A stretch of DNA of 49,074 bases from Bacteroidota bacterium (GTDB lineage Bacteria > Bacteroidota > Ignavibacteria > Kryptoniales > JAKASW01): the NCBI GenBank assembly GCA_021845665.1, contig JAJZVO010000032.1, positions 1 through 49,074 on the forward strand, read 5' to 3'. This document shows, piece after piece, positions 3,603 through 38,514 of the stretch. The notes below the pieces were generated by a model, which was not told the DNA's origin, searched no databases, and saw nothing but the letters and a program-made list of their open reading frames with translations. Made by a program: the position numbers and the translations under genes. Position 1 is the stretch's first letter; each line of letters begins with the position of its first letter.

Positions 3603-3615
3603 CTCGCCCCTATCT

Positions 3616-3698
3616 AACCACAAAGGCCACGAAGAGAAGCACAAAGAGCACGAAGTGGAACGTATTCTATTATCATAGTCTTAGTGTCCTTTGTGGTT
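3616..3698. repeat. inverted pair of CACAAAG/CACGAAG dispersed repeats, left of the GxxExxY gene
   Basis: The arm at 3616-3630 (aaccacaaaggccac) is matched at 14 of 15 positions by the reverse complement of 3684-3698 (gtgtcctttgtggtt). Between them are further short units (cacgaag, cacaaag, cacgaag). Related tracts lie at 4156-4198, 7441-7507 and 8041-8085. Confidence 0.8.
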
Positions 3699-3716
3699 GA
3701 ATTGTTTCGAGTTGGT

Positions 3717-4091
3717 TTACCCATTGATTACTCTCCTGATTCCATCCTTCAGATACTTCACATTGAAGTTGATGAGCAAACCGAGTCGGCAGCCACTGAG
3801 CTTCAAGTAAGTCAGAATCTGGGCGAGGTGAACATCGTTTAGTGCTTCCACAGAATTGGTTTCAACCACCAGCTTGCTGTCCACGAACAAGTCAAGTCTG
3901 TATCCAACATCCAACTTCACATCGTCGTAAATCAGGGGCATAGGTTTTTCCTTTTCGACCGGAACGTTTGATTTCTGGATCTCATAAAACAAGCATTCCT
4001 TGTAAGCGGATTCCAGCAAGCCTGGGCCTAGTCTCTTGTGAACTTTAATCGCCAATTCAATTGTCAAATTTGAAAGCTCCTCGTCGGTCAT
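3717..4091 (-). CDS. GxxExxY-family protein (PD-(D/E)XK nuclease-like) with altered active site
   Basis: The start at 4091 (MTDEEL) is preceded by AGGAGGAGAGAG, much better than the ATG five codons upstream. The 124-residue product has the family signature GPGLLESAYKECL (GxxExxY) near the N terminus, then YRLDLFV and HLAQILTYLKLSG. Members of this family resemble small PD-(D/E)XK nucleases, and most carry an E-x-K motif at VVE(L/I)KAVE. Here the site reads VVETNSVE, so the lysine is Asn and catalysis is probably lost. The gene is a single unit bracketed by dispersed repeats on both sides. Its role is unknown even in intact members; here it may be an inactive remnant or a binding-only form. 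Confidence 0.88.
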   Translation of the reverse strand: MTDEELSNLTIELAIKVHKRLGPGLLESAYKECLFYEIQKSNVPVEKEKPMPLIYDDVKLDVGYRLDLFVDSKLVVETNSVEALNDVHLAQILTYLKLSGCRLGLLINFNVKYLKDGIRRVING

Positions 4092-21106: not shown

Positions 21107-21172
21107 ACCCTTTTATTTCTTGCCACGGTCCCTCGAAGTGTTTTCGGAAATAAGACCAAAAGGAAGGTGGGA

Positions 21173-21595
21173 ATGACGAAGGAAAAGAAAATGCTAGAAG
21201 AGACACGGTCTGATTTGCAGGGGAACGACATACGTTATATCAATCTGTCTCCAAACTACTGGGCTGACATTGGAAAAGGGATGATAGATAGGGAGTACCT
21301 GCGCTTGCGGAGCGTTAAGGAGATCGCCGCCTCTCTGGGAATATCAACCGGATACTTTCGAGACAAATTTCGGATGGCATATGGAATTACGCCAATGCAG
21401 TATCTTAGCCAGCACAAAATAAGGAAAGCCAAGGAACTACTCGCCAATCGTTCGGAGAAAATCTGCGATGTAGCCATTAAGGTTGGAATCCCCGACAGGA
21501 ATGTTTTCAGATCGACATTCAGAAAGTTTGTAGGAGCCACTCCTTCGGAATATCGGAACATGTCATTGACCGGCGAAAATAATCCGCGAAAGTGA
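21173..21595 (+). CDS. small AraC-family helix-turn-helix regulator
   Basis: The ATG at 21173 follows AGGAAGG; an in-frame GTG two codons upstream is less likely. The 140-residue protein is little more than an AraC DNA-binding domain. The first helix-turn-helix is SVKEIAASLGISTGYFRDKF and the second contains ICDVAIKVGIPDRNVF then FRKFVGATPSEYR. No sensor domain is present ahead of it; the first 35 residues are charged and unassigned. It lies right after a beta-barrel gene. A degenerate relative is at 23211-23364, again downstream of a barrel gene. Confidence 0.9.
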   Translation: MTKEKKMLEETRSDLQGNDIRYINLSPNYWADIGKGMIDREYLRLRSVKEIAASLGISTGYFRDKFRMAYGITPMQYLSQHKIRKAKELLANRSEKICDVAIKVGIPDRNVFRSTFRKFVGATPSEYRNMSLTGENNPRK

Positions 21596-23210: not shown

Positions 23211-23364
23211 GCCGCGTGCGATTCCGCATTACCTTCGCTTGGAATGGTCACTCAAGAACCAACAAGATTCAGCTTTTAGAGTCACCTTTAAAAAGTTGAC
23301 CGGCGTTGCCCCTCGGTCATATAGTAAGAAATTGTCGTCTGTTGAAAATGATGCTCGAAAATGA
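23211..23364 (+). pseudogene. remnant of an AraC-family DNA-binding domain
   Basis: The frame at 23263-23364 reads QDSAFRVTFKKLTGV, APRSYSKKL and NDARK then TGA. This is the end of an AraC domain, and it parallels the intact gene at 21173-21595 (FRKFVGATPSEYR...NNPRK). The preceding bases, one frame off, give CDSALPSLGM, the counterpart of ICDVAIKVGI. A frameshift separates them and the first half of the domain is gone. The two loci look like copies of one barrel-plus-AraC arrangement. Confidence 0.75.
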
Positions 23365-23527: not shown

Positions 23528-24271
23528 ATGGCAACAAAAACAATGATTCTGGTGTTCAGTTTCCTGACACTCGTTTCGTTTTCTAGCGCAAGGGCGCAAG
23601 TCAACCCGGTGTATCAAAGGATGGTGAAGAATGGATGGAGTTATCCTTTTGACAAGGGATTCAGAAAATTAACCCCAACTGAAATTGATTCCGAGTTCGT
23701 CAACAGTATGGGCTACAGCGCGGCCACAGTCTCAAGACTTAAAAAAGCGGGGATCAGAGTCGTGGGACGCTGGAAAAAGCGCGGACCTTGGGACAGCAAG
23801 TTATGGACAGCGTTGTCAGACTGCATCGTTATCGGGACTGTAGCCAAGATAGCTTTCCCAACGTGGGTAAGGCCGTTCTATCATTCTATAGTTTACGTAG
23901 AAGTCGACAGTTTCTTGAGAAATGACTATGGCCTCGCGAAAGGGCAGGTGGCAGTGTTGCAAGTATCCGGTCCATCAAGTACAGGGCTGATAGCTATCGC
24001 TCCTAACGAGCCCCGCTGGACTGTGGGTGAGCGGGTTCTATTATACCTCAGCGCAAGTCAATTGATAACATTCGCGGCCAACAACGATATGCCGAAGCTC
24101 TACAATCGTCTGATCAACAGCCCTAAGGTAAGGTTTCAGCTAATCGATAGCGAAGACATAAAATCCAACGGAGTGGTGATGAACCGAAAAGAAAAGAATC
24201 TTGATGAAGTAGTAAGCGAAGCCGATTCGGTTATGAAGATTATTGGCCACCGAATGCCTATAAATAGATAA
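23528..24271 (+). CDS. small secreted protein of unknown function
   Basis: GGAGG stands seven bases before the ATG. A signal peptide (MILVFSFLTLVSFSSARA) is followed by a 220-residue secreted domain. Its core has alternating strands: SDCIVIGTVAKIAF, HSIVYVEVDSFLRN, GQVAVLQVSG and VGERVLLYLS. This pattern recurs in extracellular proteins of FCB bacteria and matches the middle of the protein at 19051. There is no T9SS tail. The next gene (T9SS metalloprotease) starts 24 bases downstream, so the two are probably in one transcript. No catalytic residues are evident. Confidence 0.82.
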   Translation: MATKTMILVFSFLTLVSFSSARAQVNPVYQRMVKNGWSYPFDKGFRKLTPTEIDSEFVNSMGYSAATVSRLKKAGIRVVGRWKKRGPWDSKLWTALSDCIVIGTVAKIAFPTWVRPFYHSIVYVEVDSFLRNDYGLAKGQVAVLQVSGPSSTGLIAIAPNEPRWTVGERVLLYLSASQLITFAANNDMPKLYNRLINSPKVRFQLIDSEDIKSNGVVMNRKEKNLDEVVSEADSVMKIIGHRMPINR

Positions 24272-24295
24272 CACTAGGAAAGGGGCGTTAGAAGA

Positions 24296-27200
24296 ATGGA
24301 CTTGACAGAAGCAAAATTCTCATTCCTATTCGTCGCCTTGTTTCTCTTCTTGTCGCACAATGTACTAGGGCAATCTGTCTACAACTGGAACGGAAAGAAA
24401 TGGGCTGATAATTCCGCAACATACCACGTAAACACTGATCTCTCAATTGAAACGGTAACAAATCAGCAGTGGGCAGCAGCGATAGACTCAGCGGCAGTAG
24501 AATGGGATGGTGCCGGTGCCAATTTCCGATTTTTAAAGGGAGGCGATGTCACATACGGCGAGCAGGTCGTTCCAAGCCAGAATATCTCCGTGCTGGGATG
24601 GTACGCCACAGCAAATACTCAAACCGGCGCCTACACTGTTCCGTACGTCGATCCAAATGACACGAATGTCATTGTCAAAATGGAAACCTATTTCAACATT
24701 TACTATAGCTTCTCCACCAATCCTGGGGCTAGTGAAGTTGATATATGGTCTGAAGCTGCGCATGAACTTGGACACCGGCTTGATCTGGAGGACGAGACAT
24801 CGGATCCCAATGAGGTCATGTATGCATACGAAACGACCACTGATCATTATCTAGGCAGTGGAGACATAGCAGGGATCCAGAATATTTATGGCGCCGGGAG
24901 CTGGGTCGTCAATAGCGACGTCACGCAGAACGAGGGGTGGTATGGAAATGTCTCTGTGGAGCCGGATAACGGATCGGATTACATATATATAAGAAACAGC
25001 AGCACTGTGGAGATGTATGCAGGATGTAATGTAACACTAGGAGCCGGGATGACAATGTATGTAAACGCAGGTTCCCAGTTGATTGAGGACGGTGGCAGCC
25101 AGGCCATCTACGGGATAGGCTCCCAGATATTGTCGAATGGAGGCATAATTACGGGAATCGATAGCACCGGAGGCGGTGGGAATACTCCTCCTCCCCCAGC
25201 GGGTTTCGCGGCATCGGTGTCAGGCCAGAACGTGTTGCTGAAATGGCAACTTCCTGCTTTTTACGGCACGACGGACGTGACTTTAGTGAAAAACGGCAAT
25301 CCGATAGATTTAGGAAGTTCTGCGACCTCCTACACCGATGCTGGCGCAGTGTCCTCTCTGCCTGCTACTTATTCTGTGCAGTTCAGTGAATCTTCATCTC
25401 AGGAAAACATCGATGGAATATCTTACTCTGACACAATAAGTCTTGGCGTTGCCCCGACTACGGTAAGCACAGATACGACATGGTCAGGGACAGTCTATCT
25501 CGGCAGCAGTGTTACTATAAACAGCGGAAACACGCTGACGATCAGCCCCGGCACGACTGTCCTGATTGGTTCCGGGAATAGTATTACAGCCAACGGGTCG
25601 ATTGACGCAAATGGGTCCCCGGCTGGCGATATCTTCTTCCAGCAAGCCGTCCCTGACAGTGCCTGGAACGAGATCGATTTGAACAGCAACGGCAATCAGT
25701 TCACCGACTGTGTATTTGATGGAGGTACCGATAACGTTTACACAAGTCATAGCCAGGGAAACACGTTTACCGACTGCACATTCGAGAATGCGAGCGGTGA
25801 TGGCTTGCTGCTGGAGGGATCCGGATCGTCAATCGATAACTGCACCTTCGAGCATAACCAGTATGGAATTGTGCTGGGGTATGCAGGCCCCACAGCTTCT
25901 ATAGTCCAATCCACTATCAGCGATAACAGCGCTGTCGGTTTATATATGGCATCAGGAACCATTTCACAATTCACCAATAATGCTGTCGAAAACAACGGCA
26001 GCTACGGAATAGATATCGAAGGCGGCATTCTGTATATGGGGAACGGCACCAGCTATTATGACATAGGGAGCAATCCTGTGGCATCGAGTCCGACACAAGG
26101 CGCAGGTAAGAACCTGATCAACAACAATGGGTCCTCACAGATTTACGTAGATACCGGCGGAGAGGTTTACGTAGGCGATCTCCAGTTCAATGGAACGGAT
26201 TATTCACTTGGCGAAGGGTTCAACAGGGTGACGTCGTCAAGCACTTACTACATATATAACCTGGCGATGACCCAGACGTATGAGTCTGAGGAACAATGGC
26301 CGGTACCTGCGGCAGAGACTTACTGGGGAGGGAGCGTAGGGTCAGAAAACTTCTATGGGACCGTCGACTACAGTTACCAGCTGACAACTGATCCATCGCG
26401 AGGAGCAGGAGCTGGTACACCTCTACAGGATATTACGGCTCCGTACGAAAGCAAGCCCCCTGCGACCCTAATGACAGCCGCGATGGCTGCCAAGATATAC
26501 AAGGACGCACCTACATCGGGAGCGGGACAGTTCTTTGTGAATTTGAAGAATAATATGATGCAGGTGATAAACGCGATAGACAATCCTAAAACCGGCATGA
26601 CACGCCCTCGCCTCATAGGTTATCTTAGTTCTCTCTGTTCCTTCGACACGAACGACGTGACACAGGAGCGAAGTGCCGTTCACGATTTGATAACGAGCTA
26701 CTACAGAGAACTGACGTCGGGCAGCTTCACCGATGAGACGGATCGGCTTTGCAGTGAAGCAGCGCTGGTAGCTGAGGTACAAGATGAAGTGGCTTCGGGG
26801 AAGCTTGACAGTGCAGACGCTCTAATAAGTACATACGGCAAGTATGTCCAGAACAATGATAACCAACGTACGCTGCTGTTTAATCAGATGGAGATCGACC
26901 AACGGCACGGACAGGATGGAAGTGCGCTGGGAGTACTAAAGCAAATCGAAGGATTTCAGCCGGACTCCAGGCAGAAGAAGGGATACGAGCCGCCCGACTA
27001 CAGTGTAATTGCATCTCTGCTTGGTCAGGGAACCAGTATCTCGCGGAACAAAGAAGTTGCGAGCGTTCAGACTCAGGTTCCAACTAAGTTCGCGCTTCTT
27101 CAGAACTATCCGAACCCGTTCAACCCGACGACTACGATAGACTACGACCTCGCAACTCCGGCGAACGTAAGTCTGGTAGTGTACGACGTGACCGGCCAGG

Positions 27201-27361
27201 AGGTAATTGTACTGGAGAGTGGACAGGAGTCGACAGGAAGTCACTCGGCAATATTTAACGGATCGAGATTTGCGAGCGGAGTCTACTTCGTGCGTCTTGT
27301 AGCCCGGGGCCAGAACGGAAGACAGTACATAAAGACAATTAAGATGGCGATGATCAAGTAA
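24296..27361 (+). CDS. T9SS-secreted matrixin-like metalloprotease with beta-helix
   Basis: After a signal peptide (FLFVALFLFLSHNVLG) the 1,021-residue protein has a metzincin-type catalytic domain (about residues 30-205). The zinc site HELGHRLDLED begins at H156; the third ligand is D166, as in HExxHxxxxxD variants, and the Met-turn is EVMYAY. A linker with an FN3-like section follows (PPPPAGFAASVSG...). About residues 395-610 form a right-handed parallel beta-helix with repeated N-x-F/C-T/S-D-C (NTFTDCTFENASGDG, SIDNCTFEHNQYGI). A helical region then leads to the C-terminal T9SS sorting domain (QNYPNPFNPTT, YDVTGQEV, GVYFVRLV). It should be released or anchored outside the cell and cut proteins. 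The next gene, an O-antigen-ligase-like protein, starts 26 bases on. Confidence 0.92.
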   Translation: MDLTEAKFSFLFVALFLFLSHNVLGQSVYNWNGKKWADNSATYHVNTDLSIETVTNQQWAAAIDSAAVEWDGAGANFRFLKGGDVTYGEQVVPSQNISVLGWYATANTQTGAYTVPYVDPNDTNVIVKMETYFNIYYSFSTNPGASEVDIWSEAAHELGHRLDLEDETSDPNEVMYAYETTTDHYLGSGDIAGIQNIYGAGSWVVNSDVTQNEGWYGNVSVEPDNGSDYIYIRNSSTVEMYAGCNVTLGAGMTMYVNAGSQLIEDGGSQAIYGIGSQILSNGGIITGIDSTGGGGNTPPPPAGFAASVSGQNVLLKWQLPAFYGTTDVTLVKNGNPIDLGSSATSYTDAGAVSSLPATYSVQFSESSSQENIDGISYSDTISLGVAPTTVSTDTTWSGTVYLGSSVTINSGNTLTISPGTTVLIGSGNSITANGSIDANGSPAGDIFFQQAVPDSAWNEIDLNSNGNQFTDCVFDGGTDNVYTSHSQGNTFTDCTFENASGDGLLLEGSGSSIDNCTFEHNQYGIVLGYAGPTASIVQSTISDNSAVGLYMASGTISQFTNNAVENNGSYGIDIEGGILYMGNGTSYYDIGSNPVASSPTQGAGKNLINNNGSSQIYVDTGGEVYVGDLQFNGTDYSLGEGFNRVTSSSTYYIYNLAMTQTYESEEQWPVPAAETYWGGSVGSENFYGTVDYSYQLTTDPSRGAGAGTPLQDITAPYESKPPATLMTAAMAAKIYKDAPTSGAGQFFVNLKNNMMQVINAIDNPKTGMTRPRLIGYLSSLCSFDTNDVTQERSAVHDLITSYYRELTSGSFTDETDRLCSEAALVAEVQDEVASGKLDSADALISTYGKYVQNNDNQRTLLFNQMEIDQRHGQDGSALGVLKQIEGFQPDSRQKKGYEPPDYSVIASLLGQGTSISRNKEVASVQTQVPTKFALLQNYPNPFNPTTTIDYDLATPANVSLVVYDVTGQEVIVLESGQESTGSHSAIFNGSRFASGVYFVRLVARGQNGRQYIKTIKMAMIK

Positions 27362-27387
27362 CGAAGTCACTTGGTTGGAGTCGCGCA

Positions 27388-29361
27388 GTGCACAAATTCA
27401 AATTCAGCCCCCTTTACACCCCCTCTCTTCTTGAAGAGAGGGGGTTGGGGGGTGAGTTCGCCTCAAACGCAACCAAGTCCGAACGATCCTTTGCGAAAAT
27501 CTATCCCGTATACTTCCTTATTTGCGCGACTGCATTTGTAGTCGACCCGTTGTCTTATGCCCCTTACCAGGCTCCTGAACTTCTATTGTTGGTCGTTATC
27601 CCACTCGTCACTTTGGTGTTCGCTTGCCTGTACCAGATTGCCAGACGGCGAACCGTCGAGATTTCAGTTTCGATTATCGAGCTTCTTCTCATTGCAGAAC
27701 TTATCTGGGTAGTATTCGGCAATCTATTGCTGCTCATCCATACCGAAAACCTGCACTTGTTCTCTATGGTCGCCTTGATCATGGTTGTCTTTATCGCTCG
27801 TCAGGTTCATGCCGGGCAAGAAGAGACACCGGAGGACCGACAACCTTCAGAGATGAGATCCGCTCTTCGTCTACTTATAAGGACAATCTGGATAGTCGGT
27901 GTGTGCCAGGCACTTATCGGATTCGCCCAGTATTATGCCGTCTTCAGCTGGTTGCCCATAGGTACCGGCAAGACGCGAATGATCGGACTTATCGGCGCAG
28001 CAAACGGGTTTGGTACGATAATGGCCCTGGCGGTAATGGCTCTGATAATTGAATCAGCAGAAGCACGGCATTGGAAATCGAGAGTAACCTTCTTAACAAT
28101 AGCGCTTGTTCCTTTCGTTGCGCTTGTCTTGAACGGATGCAGAGGAGCCTTTCTTGCGTTGGTTGCAGCGGCAATCGTGTTCTTCCTGTCGAACGGACCG
28201 GTTCCGGGACGCGTAGGTCTCACTTCAAAAGAGAAAGCTCTATCCCTTTCCATCCTGAAAGAGGGACGAAGTCGCCGGAGGCTCGTCTTTGCAGCTGCCG
28301 TCGTAGTCGTATTCGGCGGCCTGTCAATCTATTTGTATCGCTATGACCTGCAGTCTTCTCTTGGCAGATTATTCGTCTGGAGAGTATCCGCTCCGATGTT
28401 CTTTGAGCACCCTATAAAGGGAGTTGGGTTGGGCAATTATTCGGTGAAGTACCTGGATTATCAGAAGGATTTTTTCAAGGACCTGGCAAACCTGCCGCTC
28501 GCATACAAGGCGTCAAACATGAAGCAGGCTTTGAGCGATTATGTGCAGGTCTTCTGCGAGACCGGGCTTGTCGGCGGACTCTTGTTCATGGCTACTATCG
28601 GAATTGCACTCTGGGGGTTCTTCAGCAGGAAGAATCACAGGATACTGATCGGCGCCGGTTCGCTTCTGCTGGTAATCTTAATACACATGGGCGTCGACAC
28701 TCCGCTTCGCATCGTTCCCGTTGCAGCTACTGTGGCCTGTCTGCTGGGGCTTGCCCCGGTTCCATCGAAGTGGATCCGGCATTTTCGGTTGACGCCGGCC
28801 GCACTGGGGATCGCCCTTCTGCCTGCATTACTGGCTGCATCAGTCTTCGTTGGAATTAAATGCGAACGGTATTATCAGGGACGCGTTCTCTGGTTCAAAG
28901 GATATGAGTTCGCCCGGCAGCACCGGTGGCAATTTGCAGCTCAGGAATATAAAAGAGCGCTTGCCGACCTTCCTCATGACGGCCAGTTGCTCTTTAATCT
29001 CGGCGCGGTTCAGATAATCGAACATTCTTACTCAGAAGGGATTTACCATCTCCAGGAAGCAAGGGATTCGTACAACGACAGGAATATTTACCTCAGCCTC
29101 AGCGAGGGATATCTTAGTCTGCACGAGTATGAGAAGGCGCAGCATTATGCCAGAGTTGCCCTCGCAATGTTTCCAAATCAGCTCTCTCCGCGCTTGATAC
29201 TTGCAGAGATCTATTACAGAACGGGGCGATTCGGTAAATCAAAAGAATCGCTCCGCAGATGCATTGACGGGGACACTTCCATCCGTTCCCATGAGGTGGA
29301 ACAAATTTCGGCAGCAGCACAGCGTTTGTGGGATCAATATTATGCATCCCGAACTCAGTAG
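27388..29361 (+). CDS. O-antigen ligase-like (Wzy_C) membrane protein with TPR tail
   Basis: The GTG at 27388 (GGAG nine bases upstream) is the only start with a ribosome site; the frame has no ATG before the second helix. The first 25 codons read through a palindromic dispersed repeat (27405-27456) and look like added sequence. About ten membrane helices follow (residues 30-490). The conserved Wzy_C block has NGCRGAFLALV, HPIKGVGLGNY and the loop motif DYVQVFCETGLVGGLL. The last 150 residues are soluble TPR repeats (FNLGAVQIIEHSYSEGIYHL, YARVALAMFPNQ). Family members polymerise or ligate O-antigen, or transfer glycans to proteins. The setting between a T9SS protease and carbohydrate-binding lipoproteins points to surface glycan work. 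The acceptor is unknown. Confidence 0.88.
   Translation: MHKFKFSPLYTPSLLEERGLGGEFASNATKSERSFAKIYPVYFLICATAFVVDPLSYAPYQAPELLLLVVIPLVTLVFACLYQIARRRTVEISVSIIELLLIAELIWVVFGNLLLLIHTENLHLFSMVALIMVVFIARQVHAGQEETPEDRQPSEMRSALRLLIRTIWIVGVCQALIGFAQYYAVFSWLPIGTGKTRMIGLIGAANGFGTIMALAVMALIIESAEARHWKSRVTFLTIALVPFVALVLNGCRGAFLALVAAAIVFFLSNGPVPGRVGLTSKEKALSLSILKEGRSRRRLVFAAAVVVVFGGLSIYLYRYDLQSSLGRLFVWRVSAPMFFEHPIKGVGLGNYSVKYLDYQKDFFKDLANLPLAYKASNMKQALSDYVQVFCETGLVGGLLFMATIGIALWGFFSRKNHRILIGAGSLLLVILIHMGVDTPLRIVPVAATVACLLGLAPVPSKWIRHFRLTPAALGIALLPALLAASVFVGIKCERYYQGRVLWFKGYEFARQHRWQFAAQEYKRALADLPHDGQLLFNLGAVQIIEHSYSEGIYHLQEARDSYNDRNIYLSLSEGYLSLHEYEKAQHYARVALAMFPNQLSPRLILAEIYYRTGRFGKSKESLRRCIDGDTSIRSHEVEQISAAAQRLWDQYYASRTQ
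27405..27456. repeat. palindromic dispersed repeat inside the coding start of the ligase gene
   Basis: The core 27419-27444 is a perfect palindrome: ccccctctcttct/tgaa gagaggggg arms of about 11 bases. Outer parts (ccccctttacacc / ggttggggggtgag) extend it. A related copy is at 39636-39677. Here it is translated in the first 25 codons of the ligase gene. Confidence 0.8.
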
Positions 29362-29392
29362 CGCCACAATGTTTTAAAACGGAGGATTACAA

Positions 29393-30478
29393 ATGTTGAA
29401 CTTCTCGGACAGTACGGAGGCCAGGATGCTTAAGCGCGTAATCATTTTCCTCCTTGCGTTTATCGTCTCCTCATTGGATATATCTTGCAGCCACAATTCG
29501 GCAAAACAAAATGGACTCTTACTCAGCGTAGACATGAGCAAGGAGCACGATTCCGGACAGTTCAAACCCGGGAAAGGAGACAGGCTTTATGTCGCCGGAA
29601 ATTTCAACGGCTGGAAGAAGTACCAGATAGCCATGACCGAAAAGAAAGGCAATTGGATCTATTCCGCAAATATCGAAAAGTATCTCGAGAAGACGGAAGC
29701 AGGCCTCCCGATAGACACTCTCCAGTTCAACTTTCTTATCAAGCCCGGGAAAGACCGCAGCGTCCCCAATCAGGGATGGGAAGAACTCGGCGCCCGCAAG
29801 ATGGCTGTATCGACCCTGGCGTCTGAAGCGCCTGTCTTTGTCTACGGTGAACGGTTCGATAACAAGGAACCATACGATGTGACATTTACCGTCGGCATGA
29901 GCAATGAAGAGACTCTCGGCTTCTTTAAACCTGGCAGGGGAGACGAAGTTGTGGTAAGCGGATCCTTCTGCAACTGGTCTTCGAAAGGAATACCGCTCGA
30001 TAATAAAGGGGACGGCATCTACGCACGCAAAATCTGGATAAGGCAAAATCCGAGACATCCGCTCGAATATAATTTCAGGATTATTCCCAATGCGAATGTT
30101 CCGCTCCCAAATTGGGGATGGGAAACCATCCCGATGCGGAAGACATCTCTTGATTCGCGTACCATCAAGCTTCCGTTTGCTGTGTTCAATAACATAAGGC
30201 GAGTCGCGCGTTTTGTCATCGGGACTTCGAAATGGCAGCGGAAGGGAGTCTTCAAACCGATGAAAGGTGACATCCTCCAGATCAAACTTCTTCTGGACGG
30301 CAAAGTCGACCTCTCCGATGAGCTGTTCCATGTCGACAAACATCGTTACGAGACTGCTCTCGAGATCCCGCTTACGGTCAGGAAGGTCAAGTGGCAGGTC
30401 GTCGAGGACATGAATAAAGACCTCACCCAGCTGAGGCGGGTCGCTGTCGGCCTGAACGGGGCGGTTATTACAAATTGA
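29393..30478 (+). CDS. lipoprotein with three tandem starch/glycogen-binding-like beta domains
   Basis: Two starts are possible: 29393 (GGAGG upstream) or 29426, which opens the lipoprotein signal (MLKRVIIFLLAF, lipobox DISC). From the second, the mature protein is about 330 residues. It consists of three related units. Unit 1 has MSKEHDSGQFKPGKGDRLYV and AGNFNGWKK; unit 2 has MSNEETLGFFKPGRGDEVVV and SGSFCNWSS; unit 3 has SKWQRKGVFKPMKGDILQI and is degraded. Units 1 and 2 share the later block PNxGWE...RK. The GNFNGW block recalls CBM48/CBM20-type carbohydrate-binding domains. It is probably anchored in the outer membrane and binds a glucan or similar glycan. The next gene overlaps its stop codon. 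Confidence 0.82.
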   Translation: MLNFSDSTEARMLKRVIIFLLAFIVSSLDISCSHNSAKQNGLLLSVDMSKEHDSGQFKPGKGDRLYVAGNFNGWKKYQIAMTEKKGNWIYSANIEKYLEKTEAGLPIDTLQFNFLIKPGKDRSVPNQGWEELGARKMAVSTLASEAPVFVYGERFDNKEPYDVTFTVGMSNEETLGFFKPGRGDEVVVSGSFCNWSSKGIPLDNKGDGIYARKIWIRQNPRHPLEYNFRIIPNANVPLPNWGWETIPMRKTSLDSRTIKLPFAVFNNIRRVARFVIGTSKWQRKGVFKPMKGDILQIKLLLDGKVDLSDELFHVDKHRYETALEIPLTVRKVKWQVVEDMNKDLTQLRRVAVGLNGAVITN

Positions 30479-33171
30479 TGCCACCTATGAAGAATCTCAT
30501 TAGATGTCTCCCGATATTCCTGTGCCTCTTGACACTTGCCGGCTGCGGGGAAAATGTATCGACTGAGGCCTATTATAATCTCGACAAGATGCCGCACGGA
30601 TTGGTCCTTCTGAACAGGTGGCAGATACTCGGCCCTTTTCCCGCAAATGGGAACACTCACTACATCGGCGTCGATAACCTGCGCCAGTTTGGACTCGACG
30701 AGAAGACCGTGACCTATGCCGAATTCACCAATATCCAGCCGAAAGACTCATCTGAAAGATTCATAAACCGGCTGTACACCTCGGACGATTATAAGACAGA
30801 TTTCAATAAGCTGTGCCATATTCCCGATTCGCTCGGGATAGCCGCTAATGTGTATTGTGCATGCATACTTCACTCGGACAGGCCGCGAAAACTGAAACTG
30901 AATTTCTCCAGCGACGACGGTTCGCAGGTCTGGTTCGATCACAAGCTCATCTATTCATCCGGCAGAATGAATGGAATAGAGTACTACCAAAATTACCTGA
31001 CCCTCAATATCAGCAAAGGCAATAACCTCCTTCTGGTCAAGGTGAACAACTTAGCGCTTGGCTGGCAAATGTTTGCCGACGTGGAGAAGGAGACGAAGTG
31101 GAGATTGGAAAGGTACCTGAAAACTTTCTCGGTCCGTTTCGGCCGCTACTACCTGCAGCGAAGCACTCTGACAGGAGACACCATCGAACTCAACAAAGAT
31201 CTGCCTTCCGACAGGTTTGGCTTCATTCTAAGGTCCCCGGTCGGAAAGACTATTCTCAGTGACTCCGGATCGAATGCCAGCAAAGCTATGTGGGTAGTTC
31301 CGGGTCTCAAGGACGGGCTCTACAGCACAACCTTTTACGATCGGCACCAGATATTCCACGAGGAGCTGTATAAAGGACACATTGTCAGGACAATCGGAAA
31401 TATTCTCAGGAAGTTGAAAGCGTTCCGCCTGACCGGCGACGAGAAAAATGATCTCGCTGCACTGAAGTTCCGTTTCTATCACTTGTTGGTGCCGAAGAAT
31501 ATGGGAAAGACTGTACACGACAAGCGCAACTGGGACAAGAAGATGATTTTCCTCTTCACAAACCTCCGCCGCTGTTATAGCAATCTAAGCAGGGGGTTTC
31601 CTATGAATCATGATGCTACAGGCGGCATGCTGCTCACTTACGTGTCGAAAATCGACGGCGGAGTCCAATACTATCAATTGTTTGTACCGAAACAATATCG
31701 GAAAGCCAACCCTCTGCCTCTTGTAGTCGAGCTGCCGGTGTATGTGCTCAGGCACAGCTCTCCATTAAGCACCTACAGGTTTGCAAACATTAGACTCTTC
31801 GGGCAGTTCGAGCATCTGGCCGATAAGTACGATGTCATAGTCCTTTCTCCCGACTGCAGGATTTTCGAGAGTGCAAACATGAATACAATTTCGGATGCGG
31901 CATTCTGGGAAGTACTTGCCAACGTGAGAAAATTGTACGATGTAGACACCACACGTTTATATCTCAGGGGTGCGTGTCTTGCCAGCATGATGGCAATGAG
32001 CCTCGCTGAAAAATATCCCGACAAATTCGCCGCGTTGGCGATGGTTTCGCCTCAGCTTAGTGTCTCCAGGATCGACAACATTTACTTGCAACAGAACGAG
32101 CCGCTGAACTACCTGAGGAATATCTCCAATCTCCCGACTCTCGATATACATAGCAGGCTCGACCATCACAGCCCGGTTAGCATAAGTGACAAACTATACG
32201 CGGACGTGACACAGCTGGGGTTCAAGCACTTCACCTACAAAAGACTCAGGTTCGAGTTCCAGAAATATTATTCATCGCCGTATCTGTCATATATATTCGC
32301 TTTCTTTCTCAAGCACCATCTACAACCAGGTCCCCATCAAATTTTCTTCTCTACCAGCGAAATGAGATATAGCAAGTCATTCTGGCTGACGCTGAATGAA
32401 ATTAAGTATGGGCAGGTCGCAACGATACACGCGAAAATTAGGCACGACACACTCAGAGTCGAAACGAGAAACATCCGGAGTTATACCATCAATCTGAAGA
32501 CCCTGCCATATCGCGAGGGAACTCCGCTTATCATTTATAATAATGACAGCACGGTCTTTGATGCATTTCCACATACGCAATCACTTACATTTGGAACCAA
32601 GCCTTCAGACTGTCTCTTGACCAAGAACCCTGAAATAGAAGGGCCGTTTGCCGATGTCTTCACCGTTCCGTTCGCTGTCGTCCCGGGCACGATCGGTAGT
32701 GCTCACGAGACTCAGCAAATGCGGGCTCTCGCCGATACAATCGATTCCTACTGGAAGGAAAGATACTACAGCGGTTGCAGGATAATACCTGACAGAGACG
32801 TGACCAGGAAGGCCATTGATCGCTACAGCCTCCTCCTTCTCGGTACACCGCACTCGAACCTTGTCTACAGGAGATTGGCAAGCCGACTGCCTATTAAGAT
32901 CACTCCCAACTCTGTACAAATTGCTGGACACGTAGCGGAAGGTTCGAAACTTGGTTTCTATTTCATATACCCGAATCCGGAAGACCGTCACAACTACGTG
33001 GCAATAATAGGATATAACAACCCCGGATTCATTTCGCTCGGATACGAGATGGACGGTCCCGTGAGGCGTTTCGACGACGTGAGCGATTACGGCTGGTATG
33101 ATTACAAGATTTGGAGCTCCGTGACCTTCCGAACCATCAAGTCGGGTTATCTCAACTTTTTCTGGAAGTGA
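30478..33171 (+). CDS. large lipoprotein with alpha/beta-hydrolase-like domain (Cys at nucleophile position)
   Basis: The ATG at 30478 overlaps the upstream TGA (TGATG), so translation is probably coupled. MKNLIRCLPIFLCLLTLAGC has a lipobox at LAGC. Residues about 40-210 include a PA14/beta-sandwich-like part (NFSSDDGSQVWFDHKLIYSSG). About residues 385-625 look like an esterase/dienelactone-hydrolase fold: YQLFVPKQYRKANPLPLVVE, then DTTRLYLRGACLASMMAM. The nucleophile elbow expected as G-x-S-x-G is G-A-C-L-A, with Cys500. A possible His is in RLDHHSP (563/564). The last 250 residues have a repeated block (LLLGTPHSNLVYRRLASRLP, YPNPEDRHNYVAIIGYN) seen with some such hydrolases. Substrate unknown. 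Confidence 0.78.
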   Translation: MPPMKNLIRCLPIFLCLLTLAGCGENVSTEAYYNLDKMPHGLVLLNRWQILGPFPANGNTHYIGVDNLRQFGLDEKTVTYAEFTNIQPKDSSERFINRLYTSDDYKTDFNKLCHIPDSLGIAANVYCACILHSDRPRKLKLNFSSDDGSQVWFDHKLIYSSGRMNGIEYYQNYLTLNISKGNNLLLVKVNNLALGWQMFADVEKETKWRLERYLKTFSVRFGRYYLQRSTLTGDTIELNKDLPSDRFGFILRSPVGKTILSDSGSNASKAMWVVPGLKDGLYSTTFYDRHQIFHEELYKGHIVRTIGNILRKLKAFRLTGDEKNDLAALKFRFYHLLVPKNMGKTVHDKRNWDKKMIFLFTNLRRCYSNLSRGFPMNHDATGGMLLTYVSKIDGGVQYYQLFVPKQYRKANPLPLVVELPVYVLRHSSPLSTYRFANIRLFGQFEHLADKYDVIVLSPDCRIFESANMNTISDAAFWEVLANVRKLYDVDTTRLYLRGACLASMMAMSLAEKYPDKFAALAMVSPQLSVSRIDNIYLQQNEPLNYLRNISNLPTLDIHSRLDHHSPVSISDKLYADVTQLGFKHFTYKRLRFEFQKYYSSPYLSYIFAFFLKHHLQPGPHQIFFSTSEMRYSKSFWLTLNEIKYGQVATIHAKIRHDTLRVETRNIRSYTINLKTLPYREGTPLIIYNNDSTVFDAFPHTQSLTFGTKPSDCLLTKNPEIEGPFADVFTVPFAVVPGTIGSAHETQQMRALADTIDSYWKERYYSGCRIIPDRDVTRKAIDRYSLLLLGTPHSNLVYRRLASRLPIKITPNSVQIAGHVAEGSKLGFYFIYPNPEDRHNYVAIIGYNNPGFISLGYEMDGPVRRFDDVSDYGWYDYKIWSSVTFRTIKSGYLNFFWK

Positions 33172-33259
33172 GATCGCCGTGAATGGTCATTGAAAGAGAT
33201 CTGTAGGAGAAAATCATACATCACGTTCTGTAACAAGACAAAACAAGGAGGATGATGCA

Positions 33260-34417
33260 ATGAAATCGAATATGGTTTGCTTGATGCTCGTTGTCATAGT
33301 TTCAATTCCCTTATGCCTCCGGGCGTCTCTTGCGCAGGGAAGAGGTCAGCAGATGCAGAGCGCTGGCATGGTTCGCGGAAGTCATCCGCTTTCAAATCGC
33401 CTGGCATCATCCAACAGGATAAAATACGTACGTGGTATAAGAGGGGAATGGATAGCCGTAGGGCATGACGGAAACATCTACTGTTCAAGAGGCAGCCAGG
33501 TATGGATGAAGAAGCCAAACGGAAAAGTACTCCCTGTCGCGGGGGAAGGGAGTCCGGGAAACACAGGCGACGGTGGCCCGGCCATCTACGCGCAACTGAC
33601 TTCACCTACAGGATTGGCCGTCGGACCGCATGGAAGTCTCTACATAGCAGATCTTGGCAATAATAATATTCGGCGCGTAAACAGTGCGGGAATAATTACC
33701 ACGGTAGCTGGAACGGGCGTCGCAGGTTTCTCAGGCGATGGTGGTCCATCGATTCATGCAGAACTCAAACACCCTATGGGGCTCGCCATCGGCCCTCACG
33801 GGAGCATCTACGTTGTTGACCAGGGGAATTCACGAGTCAGGAAAATAACTCCTTCGGGTACTATTTCTACTGTCGCAGGCGACGGCGTATGTGGCTTCAG
33901 CGGCGACGGCGGTCCGGCTGTGCATGCGGAAATGTCAAGTCCGATGGGGATCGCTGTTGATCGGCTGGGAAACATTTATATAGCTGACTGGGGAAACCGC
34001 AGAGTCAGGGAAGTCTCAGCGCACGGGATTATTACCACAATTGCGGGGAACGGCTATTGGGGTGATTATGTCCGCAGTGGAAACGGCGGGCCTGCCACAA
34101 GTGCCGAGCTAAGCGGTCCAAGAGATGTCACCGTTGGAAAGAACGGAGCCATTTATATCGATGATGATTGGGATGGCGCGATTCGGGAGGCTAGTCCCGA
34201 TGGGATACTGTCTACATTTGTTCACAAGCGGGAGCTCGGCGATGTCGGCCATGGGGCCATCGCCTGTTTGCCTGTGTCGTCTGCAATTGGCCCGCACGGC
34301 GACTTCTATTTTGCAGAGGAGCTGATTGGTGTCAGGCAGGTTTACTTTGGCCCGGAGGGATTAATAAGAGAAGTAAAAGTTGCCAGCTCACGTTCGCTTG
34401 CTAAGAAGGAAAACTGA
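33260..34417 (+). CDS. secreted NHL-repeat beta-propeller protein
   Basis: AGGAGG lies close to the ATG. A signal peptide (CLMLVVIVSIPLCLRASLAQ) precedes a 355-residue protein made of NHL repeats. At least four are clear, each with GDGGPA...A.L..P.G.AVG..G..YIAD.GN..IR.....G.I.TVAG. The third and fourth repeats (CGFSGDGGPAVHAEMSSP and GNGGPATSAELSGP) are nearly regular, and the last ones decay. Such propellers bind proteins, nucleic acid or sugars; none is shown here. It is 88 bases after the hydrolase gene on the same strand and may be the last gene of the run or its own unit. Confidence 0.88.
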   Translation: MKSNMVCLMLVVIVSIPLCLRASLAQGRGQQMQSAGMVRGSHPLSNRLASSNRIKYVRGIRGEWIAVGHDGNIYCSRGSQVWMKKPNGKVLPVAGEGSPGNTGDGGPAIYAQLTSPTGLAVGPHGSLYIADLGNNNIRRVNSAGIITTVAGTGVAGFSGDGGPSIHAELKHPMGLAIGPHGSIYVVDQGNSRVRKITPSGTISTVAGDGVCGFSGDGGPAVHAEMSSPMGIAVDRLGNIYIADWGNRRVREVSAHGIITTIAGNGYWGDYVRSGNGGPATSAELSGPRDVTVGKNGAIYIDDDWDGAIREASPDGILSTFVHKRELGDVGHGAIACLPVSSAIGPHGDFYFAEELIGVRQVYFGPEGLIREVKVASSRSLAKKEN

Positions 34418-34772: not shown

Positions 34773-36014
34773 CTATTCGTATCTCAAAGATTCGACCGGA
34801 TTAACGCTTGCTGCCCGCCGTGCGGGGAATACTCCCGCCAGCAGTCCTATCAAGGTTAAAGCGATCACCGTGAAGAGCATTATTCCGACGGATAGTACCG
34901 GCCTCCCCAGAAATCTTAAAGCTCCGCTGCTTGTGTTGAGAAGGCCAGTTGCCGCAACGACTCCCCAGGACAGCAGAAGCCCCGATGACCCTCCGATGAA
35001 TGAGATAAGAAGAGTCTCGAAGACAAACTGCCATAACACGTATGTCTTTTTCGCTCCCACCGCCAGCTTAATCCCGATCTCCGGTGTTCTCTCCTTCACG
35101 ACTACATACATAACATTGGCAACGCCGACTCCGGCTATCATTAGAGTGAATAGCCCGACTGCACCCAGAAAGATATCGAGTCCCAGTGTGATCTTCTTGA
35201 TCATCTCGTCGATCCTCATGGTATCGAACATGTTTATCGCGCGGTTGTCGGTCGGATCAAACCTGTATTTCGCCGCAAGAACTTTCCTGATGTCGCGCAT
35301 CATCCGGGCTTGAGTGCCAGGGTCGCCCCCTCTGATAAGAATCGAGTTGACATGCCTCTTTCCGTAAATAATCCTGAAAGTTGAACATGGTATTATTGCC
35401 CTCCAGGAATCCGGACCGTTGTTCATCGATGTCTGCAGTTTCTTTTCCATGATGCCGATTACCGTGAACGGAACGTTATCCAGCATTACTGTTTTCCCGA
35501 TCGGCTTCCTATCTTTGAAGAGGGCGCGGGCCACTTTCGGCCCGAGGAACAGGCTCCGCTTTCTGTACTTGATGTCGTTCTCATCGATGAAGCGGCCGCC
35601 GGCCTGCGGATACATCGTGCGCATAACCTCGAAATCCGGACCCGCTCCTTCGCATTCGGTCGTCATTTGTGTCTTGCCATACTGGATCTCCACATTCTTT
35701 TCGTATTCCGGGCTGATCAGGACGATATCCGGCACCGTCTCCTTTAACAGCGTGGCATCCGCTTCAGTGAGCCTTATCGGGCGGTCCTTTGGCAGACCGT
35801 CATACACTTTGCCGGTCTCGCCGCCGTACAGGATCACCACCCTGTTCCACGCATTTACCATCCCCTCTTCCATGGCGTCTCCGAATCCGGAACCGAAAGC
35901 CAGGAGCAACACTACCGAGAGTGTCCCCCAGGTTATCGCAATCAATGTCAGAGCGGTCCTCATCCTGTGGCTGCGCATATCCTGCAGAAACTCCTTGACC
36001 AGTTCGATCACCAT
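34773..36014 (-). CDS. MacB/FtsX-type ABC transporter permease
   Basis: The 413-residue protein has the FtsX/MacB permease plan. A first membrane helix (LTLIAITWGTLSVVLLLAFG) is followed by a large periplasmic domain (about residues 50-270). Three helices follow in the C-terminal FtsX domain, with the conserved MYVVVKERTPEIGIKLAVGAKK-like region (ERTPEIGIKLAVGAKK). Such proteins pair with an ATPase and use mechanical force to move lipids, peptides or antibiotics. It is 25 bases after a related permease, and the pair may form a heterodimer. The adaptor is the first gene of the set. No ATPase gene is adjacent. Confidence 0.92.
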   Translation of the reverse strand: MVIELVKEFLQDMRSHRMRTALTLIAITWGTLSVVLLLAFGSGFGDAMEEGMVNAWNRVVILYGGETGKVYDGLPKDRPIRLTEADATLLKETVPDIVLISPEYEKNVEIQYGKTQMTTECEGAGPDFEVMRTMYPQAGGRFIDENDIKYRKRSLFLGPKVARALFKDRKPIGKTVMLDNVPFTVIGIMEKKLQTSMNNGPDSWRAIIPCSTFRIIYGKRHVNSILIRGGDPGTQARMMRDIRKVLAAKYRFDPTDNRAINMFDTMRIDEMIKKITLGLDIFLGAVGLFTLMIAGVGVANVMYVVVKERTPEIGIKLAVGAKKTYVLWQFVFETLLISFIGGSSGLLLSWGVVAATGLLNTSSGALRFLGRPVLSVGIMLFTVIALTLIGLLAGVFPARRAASVNPVESLRYE

Positions 36015-36039
36015 GACGATTCGCCTTCCTGTGGACGCA

Positions 36040-37275
36040 TCAGTCTCTCAGACAATCCACGACGTTCAGGTTTGCCGCCCGGCGGGCGGGCATCATCCCC
36101 GACGTTATCCCTATTATGCCGAGCATCAAAATCGTTATCACTATCAAGGGTAAGGACATCTGCGGGGTCCCGACATATTCCTTCACGGGGATAAGCTGAA
36201 GAAGCGAAACGATTCCCCAGGCAATCAGAAACCCGATCGCCGCTCCCAATCCGACGATCATGAATGTCTCCGCAAAGAATTGAAGGAGTATCGTCGACTT
36301 CCTGGCGCCTACCGATCTCTTGACGCCGATCTCCTTCGTGCGTTCCTGGACAACGATAAGCATTATGTTGGCTACTCCGAGGCCGGCGACGCCGAGGGTG
36401 AAGCTTCCGATGATTCCGAGGAAGAGGGTGAACCCGATCGTGATATAGTCGAGTATCTTTTCGAAATCCGCCGTGTTCCAGATTTGAAGGGCGTCGTGGT
36501 CCGTCGGATCGAAATGGTATTCTTCACTGAGAGCCTGCCGCACCTCTTTCTCCACGAGCGCAGTCTCTGAAGCGTGTGCCGCCCTGTATACGATGTCCGT
36601 CAGATATTGAGTTCCGAAAAGGGCCGTATATGTCGGAGCGGGAATGAAGACTCTATCCGCGTCTTCAGTGTTATAGGAAGAATTCTGGACCTTCGGCAGC
36701 ATCACTCCGATCACGATGAACGGCGTAATGCCGATATATACGGTCTTGCCGACGGCGTTCTTATCGCCGAACAGGTAGTCCTTCACCCTGTTCCCGAGCA
36801 CCACGACCCGCTTCCTTCCTGCCACATCCAGCGTATCGATGAATCTTCCGCCCTCGGCGGGTATGATGTTTCTCATCTTTCCGTAAACGGGGTAAATTCC
36901 TGTAATACCCGGGTTCATTATGTTCGTCCCGTAACGAATCGGCGTTTTCGTTCGGATATACTCGGGACATATCTCGCTTATTTCCGGCACCTTCGCGCGA
37001 AGAACGGGTATCGCTTCTTCCGTAAGGTGTATCTCCCTTCCGATTCCGAACCCCTCGTAAGGCTTTGTAGTCTTGCCCGGAAAGAGGATCGAGATGTCCT
37101 CACCCATTCCGTGCATATTTACCATCGATTGTCTTTTGAATCCGAGTCCGACCGAAACCAGAACTACGATGGTGACGGTGCCCCAAATGATCCCGAACAA
37201 AGTCAGAAAGGTTCGCATCTTCTGGGCACGGATGTCGGCAAAAAACTCAGCGAGTAAGCTTGTCAGGGTCGCCAT
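36040..37275 (-). CDS. MacB/FtsX-type ABC transporter permease
   Basis: The 411-residue protein has the same plan as the preceding permease gene product: helix 1 (FLTLFGIIWGTVTIVVLVSVGLG), periplasmic domain, and C-terminal FtsX domain with VQERTKEIGVKRSVGARKS. The two are clearly related to one another. The gene starts nine bases after the stop of the adaptor gene, and both are read on the minus strand. Sequence does not show which substrate it handles. Confidence 0.92.
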   Translation of the reverse strand: MATLTSLLAEFFADIRAQKMRTFLTLFGIIWGTVTIVVLVSVGLGFKRQSMVNMHGMGEDISILFPGKTTKPYEGFGIGREIHLTEEAIPVLRAKVPEISEICPEYIRTKTPIRYGTNIMNPGITGIYPVYGKMRNIIPAEGGRFIDTLDVAGRKRVVVLGNRVKDYLFGDKNAVGKTVYIGITPFIVIGVMLPKVQNSSYNTEDADRVFIPAPTYTALFGTQYLTDIVYRAAHASETALVEKEVRQALSEEYHFDPTDHDALQIWNTADFEKILDYITIGFTLFLGIIGSFTLGVAGLGVANIMLIVVQERTKEIGVKRSVGARKSTILLQFFAETFMIVGLGAAIGFLIAWGIVSLLQLIPVKEYVGTPQMSLPLIVITILMLGIIGITSGMMPARRAANLNVVDCLRD

Positions 37276-37284
37276 TTTGTCATA

Positions 37285-38394
37285 TCACTGGATTTTGACG
37301 ACGGGCTTCTCCAGAACTTTCTCTCCGAGCGCTAGACCGGAGGTCACCTCTATGCTTATGGCGTCACTGATCCCCGTCCTGATGGCTAGTTCCACAGGCT
37401 TGTTTCGGTCCGATGGAACCCTGACAAATGAAGAGTCGTTCCTGAATGTCACCACGCGCTCGGGGATATAAAGAACGTCTGTCTTCTTTTGCGTGATGAT
37501 ACTGGCGTTCGCTGAATAGCCCGCCCGCAAAGTGATCTGTTTGGTATTTAGGATCGAAATCTCTACGGGAAATACCGCCGAGTTTTCCCTGGTTTCGCCC
37601 TGCAGCCATATTTTTGTAAGAGTCCCGCTGATGGTGTCGCCCGGGAGCGCGCCTATGCTTATCTCAGCGGGCATTCCAACTTTGAGGCTCCCGACATCGA
37701 TCTCATCAACAGTACCCTTGAATACCAGGCGGCTCATGTTTGCCATCTGCATCAGCACGGTCCCTTCCTGGTACGAGGTGAGAGGAATGACAGGGTCCCC
37801 GACTTCGACCGACCGGGTTAATATGTAACCTGTTATAGGTGCGTATATAATGGACCGGATCCTGGTATGGTCTATGGTAACCGATCCGGACACCATGAGT
37901 TGGAGCGATTCCTGTGCCATTTTCAGATGCAGCTCGGCCTCTCTGTATGCCATAACCGTGTTATCGTAATCCTGAGGCGAAAGCAGCGATCTCCGGTATA
38001 ACAGTCTCTGACGCCGTTCCTGGGCTTTGATGTTGTCGAAATCTACCTGGGCAAGTTCAACCTGCCGTTTGGCGTCAGCAAGTTCTACGGGTGTCGGGTC
38101 CGGCTTAACCTGTATGAGCGGGTCTCCTTCATGAACATACGATCCGACATCGACATAGAGTTTCCCGACAACTCCACTGACTCGGGACTTGATCGAGATT
38201 TCATTTTCCGGTTCGATTGTGCCGACGGCGAGAGCCTTTACCTCTATCGTTCCCCGCTTGACGGTAACGGCGGGCAAACTTGCCGGATTTTTCCCGGAAT
38301 CGGCTTTGATGACAAAGAATGCTATCAGGCTCAGCAACAATAAGGCTAATGCGCCGGATACCACCCACTTCTTTTTCCTCTTCTTCTTGGGCAT
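37285..38394 (-). CDS. HlyD/MacA-type periplasmic adaptor
   Basis: I take the ATG at 38394 (MPKKKRKKKW, GGAG upstream) because it places a basic end before a single membrane helix (GALALLLLSLIAFFVI). An in-frame GTG 25 codons earlier is an alternative. The 369-residue protein has a lipoyl-like hairpin (KSRVSGVVGKLYVDVGSYV), a coiled coil (KRQVELAQVDFDNIKAQERR through YREAELHLKMAQESL), and a beta-barrel/membrane-proximal region (VFKGTVDEIDVGSLKVGM). It would link the two permeases to an outer-membrane channel. Neither that channel nor the ATPase is in the window. Confidence 0.92.
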   Translation of the reverse strand: MPKKKRKKKWVVSGALALLLLSLIAFFVIKADSGKNPASLPAVTVKRGTIEVKALAVGTIEPENEISIKSRVSGVVGKLYVDVGSYVHEGDPLIQVKPDPTPVELADAKRQVELAQVDFDNIKAQERRQRLLYRRSLLSPQDYDNTVMAYREAELHLKMAQESLQLMVSGSVTIDHTRIRSIIYAPITGYILTRSVEVGDPVIPLTSYQEGTVLMQMANMSRLVFKGTVDEIDVGSLKVGMPAEISIGALPGDTISGTLTKIWLQGETRENSAVFPVEISILNTKQITLRAGYSANASIITQKKTDVLYIPERVVTFRNDSSFVRVPSDRNKPVELAIRTGISDAISIEVTSGLALGEKVLEKPVVKIQ

Positions 38395-38514
38395 TTTTCT
38401 GGTTCTCCAGTAAGCTTCGATGTTGATGTCCGAGCTTACGGGATCAGTGAAGATAGGTTTCAACTTCACGGGTTGTGGCGGGCATGATTACTCGTGAGAA
38501 AAAAAGCAGGACTG

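Follow-up and report, generated by a model that had tools for sequence, protein, structure and literature searches.

Organization of the locus

We analysed a 49,074-nucleotide window of a Bacteroidota bacterium genome (assembly GCA_021845665.1, contig JAJZVO010000032.1; "the window" is this whole stretch) and focus here on six open reading frames (ORFs) at positions 23528-34417, among which a membrane protein of the Wzy_C family with tetratricopeptide repeats (TPRs) and a lipoprotein resembling a hydrolase, with a cysteine in place of the catalytic serine, are of special interest. All six lie on the plus strand, separated by intergenic gaps of 24, 26, 31, ~0 and 88 bases. The features of the region are as follows, T9SS standing for type IX secretion system.

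23528..24271, plus strand: gene 1, Sec-secreted protein of 247 aa with no library match; part of the protease module, not of the ligase module
24296..27361, plus strand: gene 2, matrixin-like M10 metalloprotease with a right-handed beta-helix and a T9SS type A sorting tail (Peptidase_M10, Beta_helix and Por_Secre_tail matches)
27388..29361, plus strand: gene 3, Wzy_C/O-antigen-ligase-like membrane protein with C-terminal TPRs (Wzy_C and TPR matches)
29393..30478, plus strand: gene 4, lipoprotein with three tandem CBM48/AMPK1_CBM-like repeats, outside the conserved core (AMPK1_CBM matches in two stretches)
30475..33171, plus strand: gene 5, lipoprotein Cys-"hydrolase" (weak esterase/PHB-depolymerase match)
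33260..34417, plus strand: gene 6, secreted NHL beta-propeller (NHL match)
34773..38469, minus strand: convergent neighbours, two MacB/FtsX-type permeases and a MacA/HlyD-type adaptor; candidate members only

These ORFs and gaps had been proposed by an earlier, sequence-only reading of the window and were found in place; its product calls (matrixin with beta-helix and T9SS tail, Wzy_C with TPRs, CBM48 repeats, esterase-like protein, NHL protein) were likewise upheld by family matches. No convincing plus-strand terminator was found between the six genes, and the ATG at 30478 of gene 5 overlaps the TGA of the gene 4 lipoprotein. Going by spacing alone, the run may be one operon. It is not one conserved system and splits into modules, of which the conserved core is the pair formed by the gene 3 TPR-Wzy_C protein (hereafter the TPR-ligase, by family name) and the gene 5 Cys-hydrolase. 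A defence or phage origin of the locus was also considered and rejected, as PADLOC and PHROG gave no matches. The T9SS tails and the relatives found are in keeping with a source in the Bacteroidota/FCB group.

Conservation of the ligase-hydrolase pair

A scan of gene 5 against about 85,000 species genomes returned two full-length relatives, one in a Bacteroidota metagenome-assembled genome (L018) and one in Breznakibacter xylanolyticus (L019), and profile searches added three further copies, all in the genome G463 (L046, L047, L098). In L018, a TPR-ligase lies directly upstream of the Cys-hydrolase, and each of the three G463 hydrolases is accompanied by a TPR-ligase, a SurA-like lipoprotein and a secreted protein of 131-139 aa. 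The Breznakibacter ligase and hydrolase (L112/L019) are 17.5 kb apart, on one contig and on the same strand. Counting the window, the two genes are adjacent or one to two genes apart at five loci in three genomes. From gene numbers, we infer that a gene with one to four copies among several thousand would hardly ever come to lie beside the same partner in three unrelated genomes by chance.

The sequence-only reading had put forward the ligase, the triplicated lipoprotein and the Cys-hydrolase as a possible conserved trio. The pair of ligase and hydrolase does recur, at five further loci in three further genomes, but the lipoprotein drops out, with no relative in any of these genomes (G420, G421 and G463). 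Nor is such a trio widespread in the window's phylum, an idea that we rejected: among 395 genomes sampled there, the Cys-hydrolase family is found in the window's own genome only, and the next-best full-length relative is of the Ser type. It is rare in the order of Breznakibacter as well, being present in 3 of 393 genomes sampled, and no other of 12 genus mates of the window's genome encodes the full-length hydrolase.

Ligases linked to a hydrolase do not group together in the family tree but fall on separate branches; the pairing therefore recurs and was not inherited as one block, and the place of the enzyme in the system seems to have been filled anew on more than one occasion. The ligase of L125 (G450) is sister to that of Breznakibacter. 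An N-terminal Cys-hydrolase remnant, with a stop after about 66 aa, lies at positions 4610-4810 of L125, in an NVEALA-like locus.

Active-site residues of the two proteins

The Wzy_C domain of gene 3 matches PF04932 above its cut-off (E 2e-13). Of 247 genomes searched with the TPR-ligase profile, 19 gave matches, at about 30 loci in all, whose scores stand clearly apart from those of ordinary Wzy_C proteins, and the family is split from control Wzy_C proteins with 100/100 tree support. The characterized ligases WaaL and PglL share two arginines and one histidine, the latter being H338 in WaaL and H349 in PglL (PMC3643930), and this histidine has been proposed to activate the acceptor (PMC10920833). 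Gene 3 carries Arg252 (codon 28141-28143) and Arg327 (28366-28368) at the positions of the arginines that bind undecaprenyl-diphosphate (WaaL R215 and R288). They are kept in 94% and 100% of the TPR family, respectively, and in 10/10 controls. The position of the acceptor-activating histidine is occupied by Leu382 (28531-28533); across the TPR family, this histidine is present in 1/35 members, nearly all others having Phe, Tyr or Leu, versus 10/10 controls. Because it has been lost across the family, the designation "glycan ligase" is doubtful for these proteins. L099 (G474, 2113-4041) encodes the sole TPR-ligase surveyed that has the His of the HN motif.

Gene 5 probably starts at ATG 30478 or 30487 and has the lipobox LAGC, followed by an N-terminal domain, an alpha/beta-hydrolase domain and a conserved C-terminal domain. 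Its nucleophile elbow reads G-A-C-L-A (G-x-C-x-G-type): Cys501 (codon 31975-31977) replaces the serine, and a cysteine is found here in every relative examined. At the canonical histidine position there is a Phe or Tyr instead. A D-x-H motif is formed by Asp563 (32161-32163) and His565 (32167-32169); these two residues and Cys501 do not vary among the five relatives aligned, even at identities as low as 25%. A relative of the Ser type, in the genome G110, has both GxSxG and GH intact. On this pattern of residues, gene 5 may be a cysteine enzyme with a relocated histidine or a pseudoenzyme, and the data fit either.

The same substitutions are the basis of an explanation in which neither protein is catalytic, genes 3 and 5 being a pseudo-ligase and a pseudo-hydrolase to which secreted proteins dock or which act as their chaperones. 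The catalytic histidine is gone from the ligase family, gene 5 has exchanged Ser for Cys and the canonical His for Phe or Tyr, and the SurA-like and propeller partners are binding folds. A pure scaffold would need neither the two donor arginines nor the Cys501-Asp563-His565 set, yet both are kept, the latter strictly and down to 25% identity, and we consider this explanation unlikely.

Neighbourhoods of the TPR-Wzy_C family

We compared the neighbourhoods of 30 TPR-ligase loci with those of ten control loci of ordinary Wzy_C proteins. Transglutaminase-like genes were present at 17/30 TPR-ligase loci versus 0/10 controls (p = 0.002). The signal peptidase I LepB was found at 9/30, DUF5128 6-bladed propellers at 8/30 and resistance-nodulation-division (RND) pumps at 6/30, each against 0/10 controls. 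NVEALA peptides (PF14055) or look-alikes are encoded beside the ligases of L104, L108, L109, L117 and L120.

The Breznakibacter locus combines the complete set with the hydrolase: it encodes propellers, the ligase, NVEALA-like peptides, DUF1573, a MacA-like adaptor, RND, TolC and LepB, then the Cys-hydrolase, and has no transglutaminase. More generally, a transglutaminase is found at 0/6 hydrolase loci versus 18/29 other loci (p = 0.008, with same-genome loci being non-independent). The genus mate G002 carries a transglutaminase-type TPR-ligase locus (L060, 8568-18982), which contains a 6-bladed propeller, a redoxin, a TlpA-like protein, a transglutaminase with an F5/8C domain, two NlpC/P60 proteins and a LepB-like protein.

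The propeller encoded in the window locus is of the NHL type, not the DUF5128 type, and may fill the propeller role there. A search of the window's own genome (G000) with PF14055 gave no match. The intergenic region at 22.7-23.5 kb holds no convincing small precursor peptide, and no signal-bearing small ORF lies upstream.

The lipoprotein, the protease module and the sister species

The triplication of the gene 4 lipoprotein was borne out: repeats 1 and 2 share 34% identity (E 4e-19), and the third repeat is degenerate. We rejected gene 4 as part of the conserved core, given that it has no relative in the genomes with the pair and that its domain is common elsewhere. The triplicated lipoprotein is private to this genome, and T9SS proteins across the class commonly carry its CBM48/AMPK1_CBM-like domain. 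For example, a T9SS-tailed protein with gene 4-like CBM48/AMPK1_CBM repeats is encoded at L002 (G000:C75, 1402-3033).

Genes 1 and 2 form the second module. Gene 1 is restricted to the genus and lies directly upstream of a matrixin gene in three species, the two besides the window's being G004 and G012, the latter with a tandem pair of gene 1 copies. Its possible role as a TIMP-like metalloprotease inhibitor was suggested by a sequence pattern, has no library match and is not claimed here. Gene 2 has the M10 motif HELGHRLDLED and a C-terminal type A sorting domain (TIGR04183, 39.8 bits against a cut-off of 23), as expected of T9SS cargo. Short AraC-type helix-turn-helix (HTH) genes or remnants are present upstream of gene 1 (window 21167-21595 and 23216-23364), and likewise upstream of a truncated gene 1 copy (L067, G000:C93, 642-1342), which suggests a duplicated, decaying cassette of a regulator and a secreted protein.

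In the sister species G012, a locus syntenic with the window retains the ligase (86% identical) and, beside it, the NHL gene (~88% at the DNA level), which has lost its first ~165 bases; the MacB/FtsX permease and MacA/HlyD adaptor genes lie downstream as well. The gene 4 lipoprotein and the gene 5 hydrolase are missing. Exactly where they and the NHL start are missing sits a group II intron-like stretch (L058, 14620-15074; Rfam D1D4-4, E 4e-4, below the gathering score). This arrangement fits a loss of genes 4-5 by deletion in G012, their gain in the window being the alternative. In G012, the ligase is immediately preceded by a beta-helix T9SS paralogue that has no metalloprotease domain, so that any T9SS partner of the ligase would share the beta-helix and sorting tail and not the protease. 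The matrixin gene of G012 (L058, 4615-7709) is frame-broken into two ORFs, and its gene 1 copies are intact.

These observations bear on the function first proposed for the locus by the sequence-only reading, namely that the ligase and the two lipoproteins process a glycan for the protease or attach it to it. In its explicit form, gene 3 would be an active O-antigen ligase or O-oligosaccharyltransferase that puts a glycan on the T9SS protease encoded with it, helped in glycan processing by the lipoprotein and the hydrolase. Gene 3 does have the Wzy_C fold and both donor-binding arginines, dedicated oligosaccharyltransferases often adjoin their targets (PMC3643930), and a T9SS protein is encoded upstream of the ligase in both the window and G012. 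The CBM48-like repeats of gene 4 could bind glycan, and CBM48-CE1 esterases are known as structures. The proposal is nonetheless weakened by the absence of the acceptor-activating histidine from 34/35 family members including gene 3, by G004, which has the gene 1-metalloprotease pair and no ligase found in its genome, by the protease-free neighbour of the G012 ligase, and by the lack of conservation of gene 4 with the pair. Because the histidine is missing and the protease module is separable, we consider it possible, but less probable than the envelope system that we propose below, that a glycan is attached to the protease, and we judge this full scheme quite unlikely.

The six genes could also be an arbitrary co-directional run of envelope genes, in which the gene 1-protease and ligase-hydrolase pairs are each meaningful separately only. 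Such a run would agree with the patchy presence of the hydrolase among genus mates and with the separation of the modules in G004 and G012. The tight, terminator-free spacing, the persistence of ligase and NHL gene together in G012, and the recurrence of the ligase-hydrolase pairing in three independent genomes speak against it, and it appears rather unlikely.

Proposed function

The window locus is best read as an outlying, divergent version of the NVEALA-type system of Bacteroidota. We propose that genes 3 and 5, possibly with the NHL propeller, are the functional core of a variant of an undescribed envelope system frequent among Bacteroidota, a proposal that we regard as evenly poised between right and wrong. 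In its usual form, this system would pair the TPR-Wzy_C protein with a secreted cysteine enzyme, in most cases transglutaminase-like, and would further include signal peptidase I, a 6-bladed propeller, an RND/MacA pump and small secreted NVEALA-type peptides. A secreted (poly)peptide encoded with these proteins would be exported and captured on the periplasmic side by the TPR domain of the Wzy_C protein, whose two retained arginines would hold an undecaprenyl-diphosphate-linked donor. The outer-membrane Cys enzyme would then process or acylate the (poly)peptide via a thioester intermediate, using the relocated D-x-H pair. In the window, the likely partner would be the upstream beta-helix/T9SS protein, not its protease activity. 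The substrate, donor, acceptor, chemistry and order or direction of these steps are what we infer from the observed family membership, gene association, exchange of transglutaminase and hydrolase, and residue losses and gains.

Several points weigh against this proposal. LepB, an RND pump, a transglutaminase and an NVEALA peptide are all absent from the window locus, and gene 3 sits on a long branch of the family tree (2.15 changes per site). The enrichments of LepB, propellers and RND pumps are each not significant alone in Fisher tests, and several of the loci counted come from one genome and hence are not independent. The structure prediction of full-length gene 5 (predicted local distance difference test score, pLDDT, 48) is unusable for active-site geometry; that of the catalytic domain alone (pLDDT 56) identified the alpha/beta-hydrolase fold, with His565 not placeable. 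The losses of His in the ligase and Ser in the hydrolase are also compatible with inactive scaffolds.

More tentatively, and leaning slightly towards doubt, we suggest that secreted peptides and proteins are modified or anchored outside the cytoplasm by an undescribed system widely distributed in Bacteroidota and their relatives. Its Wzy_C part would have lost the ligase histidine and gained TPRs, and its enzyme slot would be taken either by a transglutaminase-like protein or by a member of a new Cys-His alpha/beta-hydrolase family whose catalytic histidine has been relocated. If the ligase-hydrolase pair works as proposed, the residues to test are C501, H565, R252, R327 and position 382.

Comparison with known systems

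The closest likeness is to the NVEALA-type loci (PF14055), which likewise have a TPR-Wzy_C family member, a secreted cysteine enzyme, an efflux pump nearby and, if the NHL type is counted, a beta-propeller. Unlike them, the window has no NVEALA peptide, LepB or transglutaminase, has an NHL instead of a DUF5128 propeller and a Cys-hydrolase instead of a transglutaminase, and its only obvious secreted partner is a large T9SS protein. In Bacteroides thetaiotaomicron, BT0662 is an O-antigen ligase family protein, BT0664 a 6-bladed propeller, BT0667 a signal peptidase I and BT0669 an RND adaptor (PMC10434189). By gene names, the BT0662-BT0669 arrangement resembles the family loci, BT0662 being likened by annotation alone.

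With WaaL and PglL (Wzy_C, GT121), gene 3 shares the Pfam Wzy_C domain and the two conserved arginines, but it is without their histidine (E. coli WaaL H338, PglL H349), has added C-terminal TPRs and lies away from lipopolysaccharide genes. Gene 5 shares an alpha/beta-hydrolase domain and the nucleophile-elbow position with PHB-depolymerase/CE1-like esterases (LC-Est1C 3wyd, 3doh). It differs in having Cys for Ser, a replacement of the canonical His that is present in LC-Est1C, an extra invariant His two residues after the Asp, and large N- and C-terminal domains. The exosortase/PEP-CTERM O-ligases (TIGR03097), which occur with PrsT TPR proteins, also tie Wzy_C and TPR to a sorted secreted protein. 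The similarity of gene 3 to TIGR03097 is weak and below the cut-off; in the window no exosortase or PEP-CTERM proteins were seen, and the TPR is fused to Wzy_C.

Many Bacteroidota, gut Bacteroides among them, have NVEALA peptides with their neighbourhoods; the literature that we searched makes no mention of NVEALA and describes no function for the NVEALA-type neighbourhood. If our proposal is true, the pair ties this orphan system to a membrane protein that is annotated everywhere as "O-antigen ligase", probably wrongly, and the annotation "O-antigen ligase family protein" should not be read as glycosylation in these genomes. The component folds were already known, and public annotation already shows the NVEALA-type neighbourhood; new are the ligase/Cys-hydrolase pair, the loss of the histidine across the TPR family, and the mutual exclusion of Cys-hydrolase and transglutaminase.

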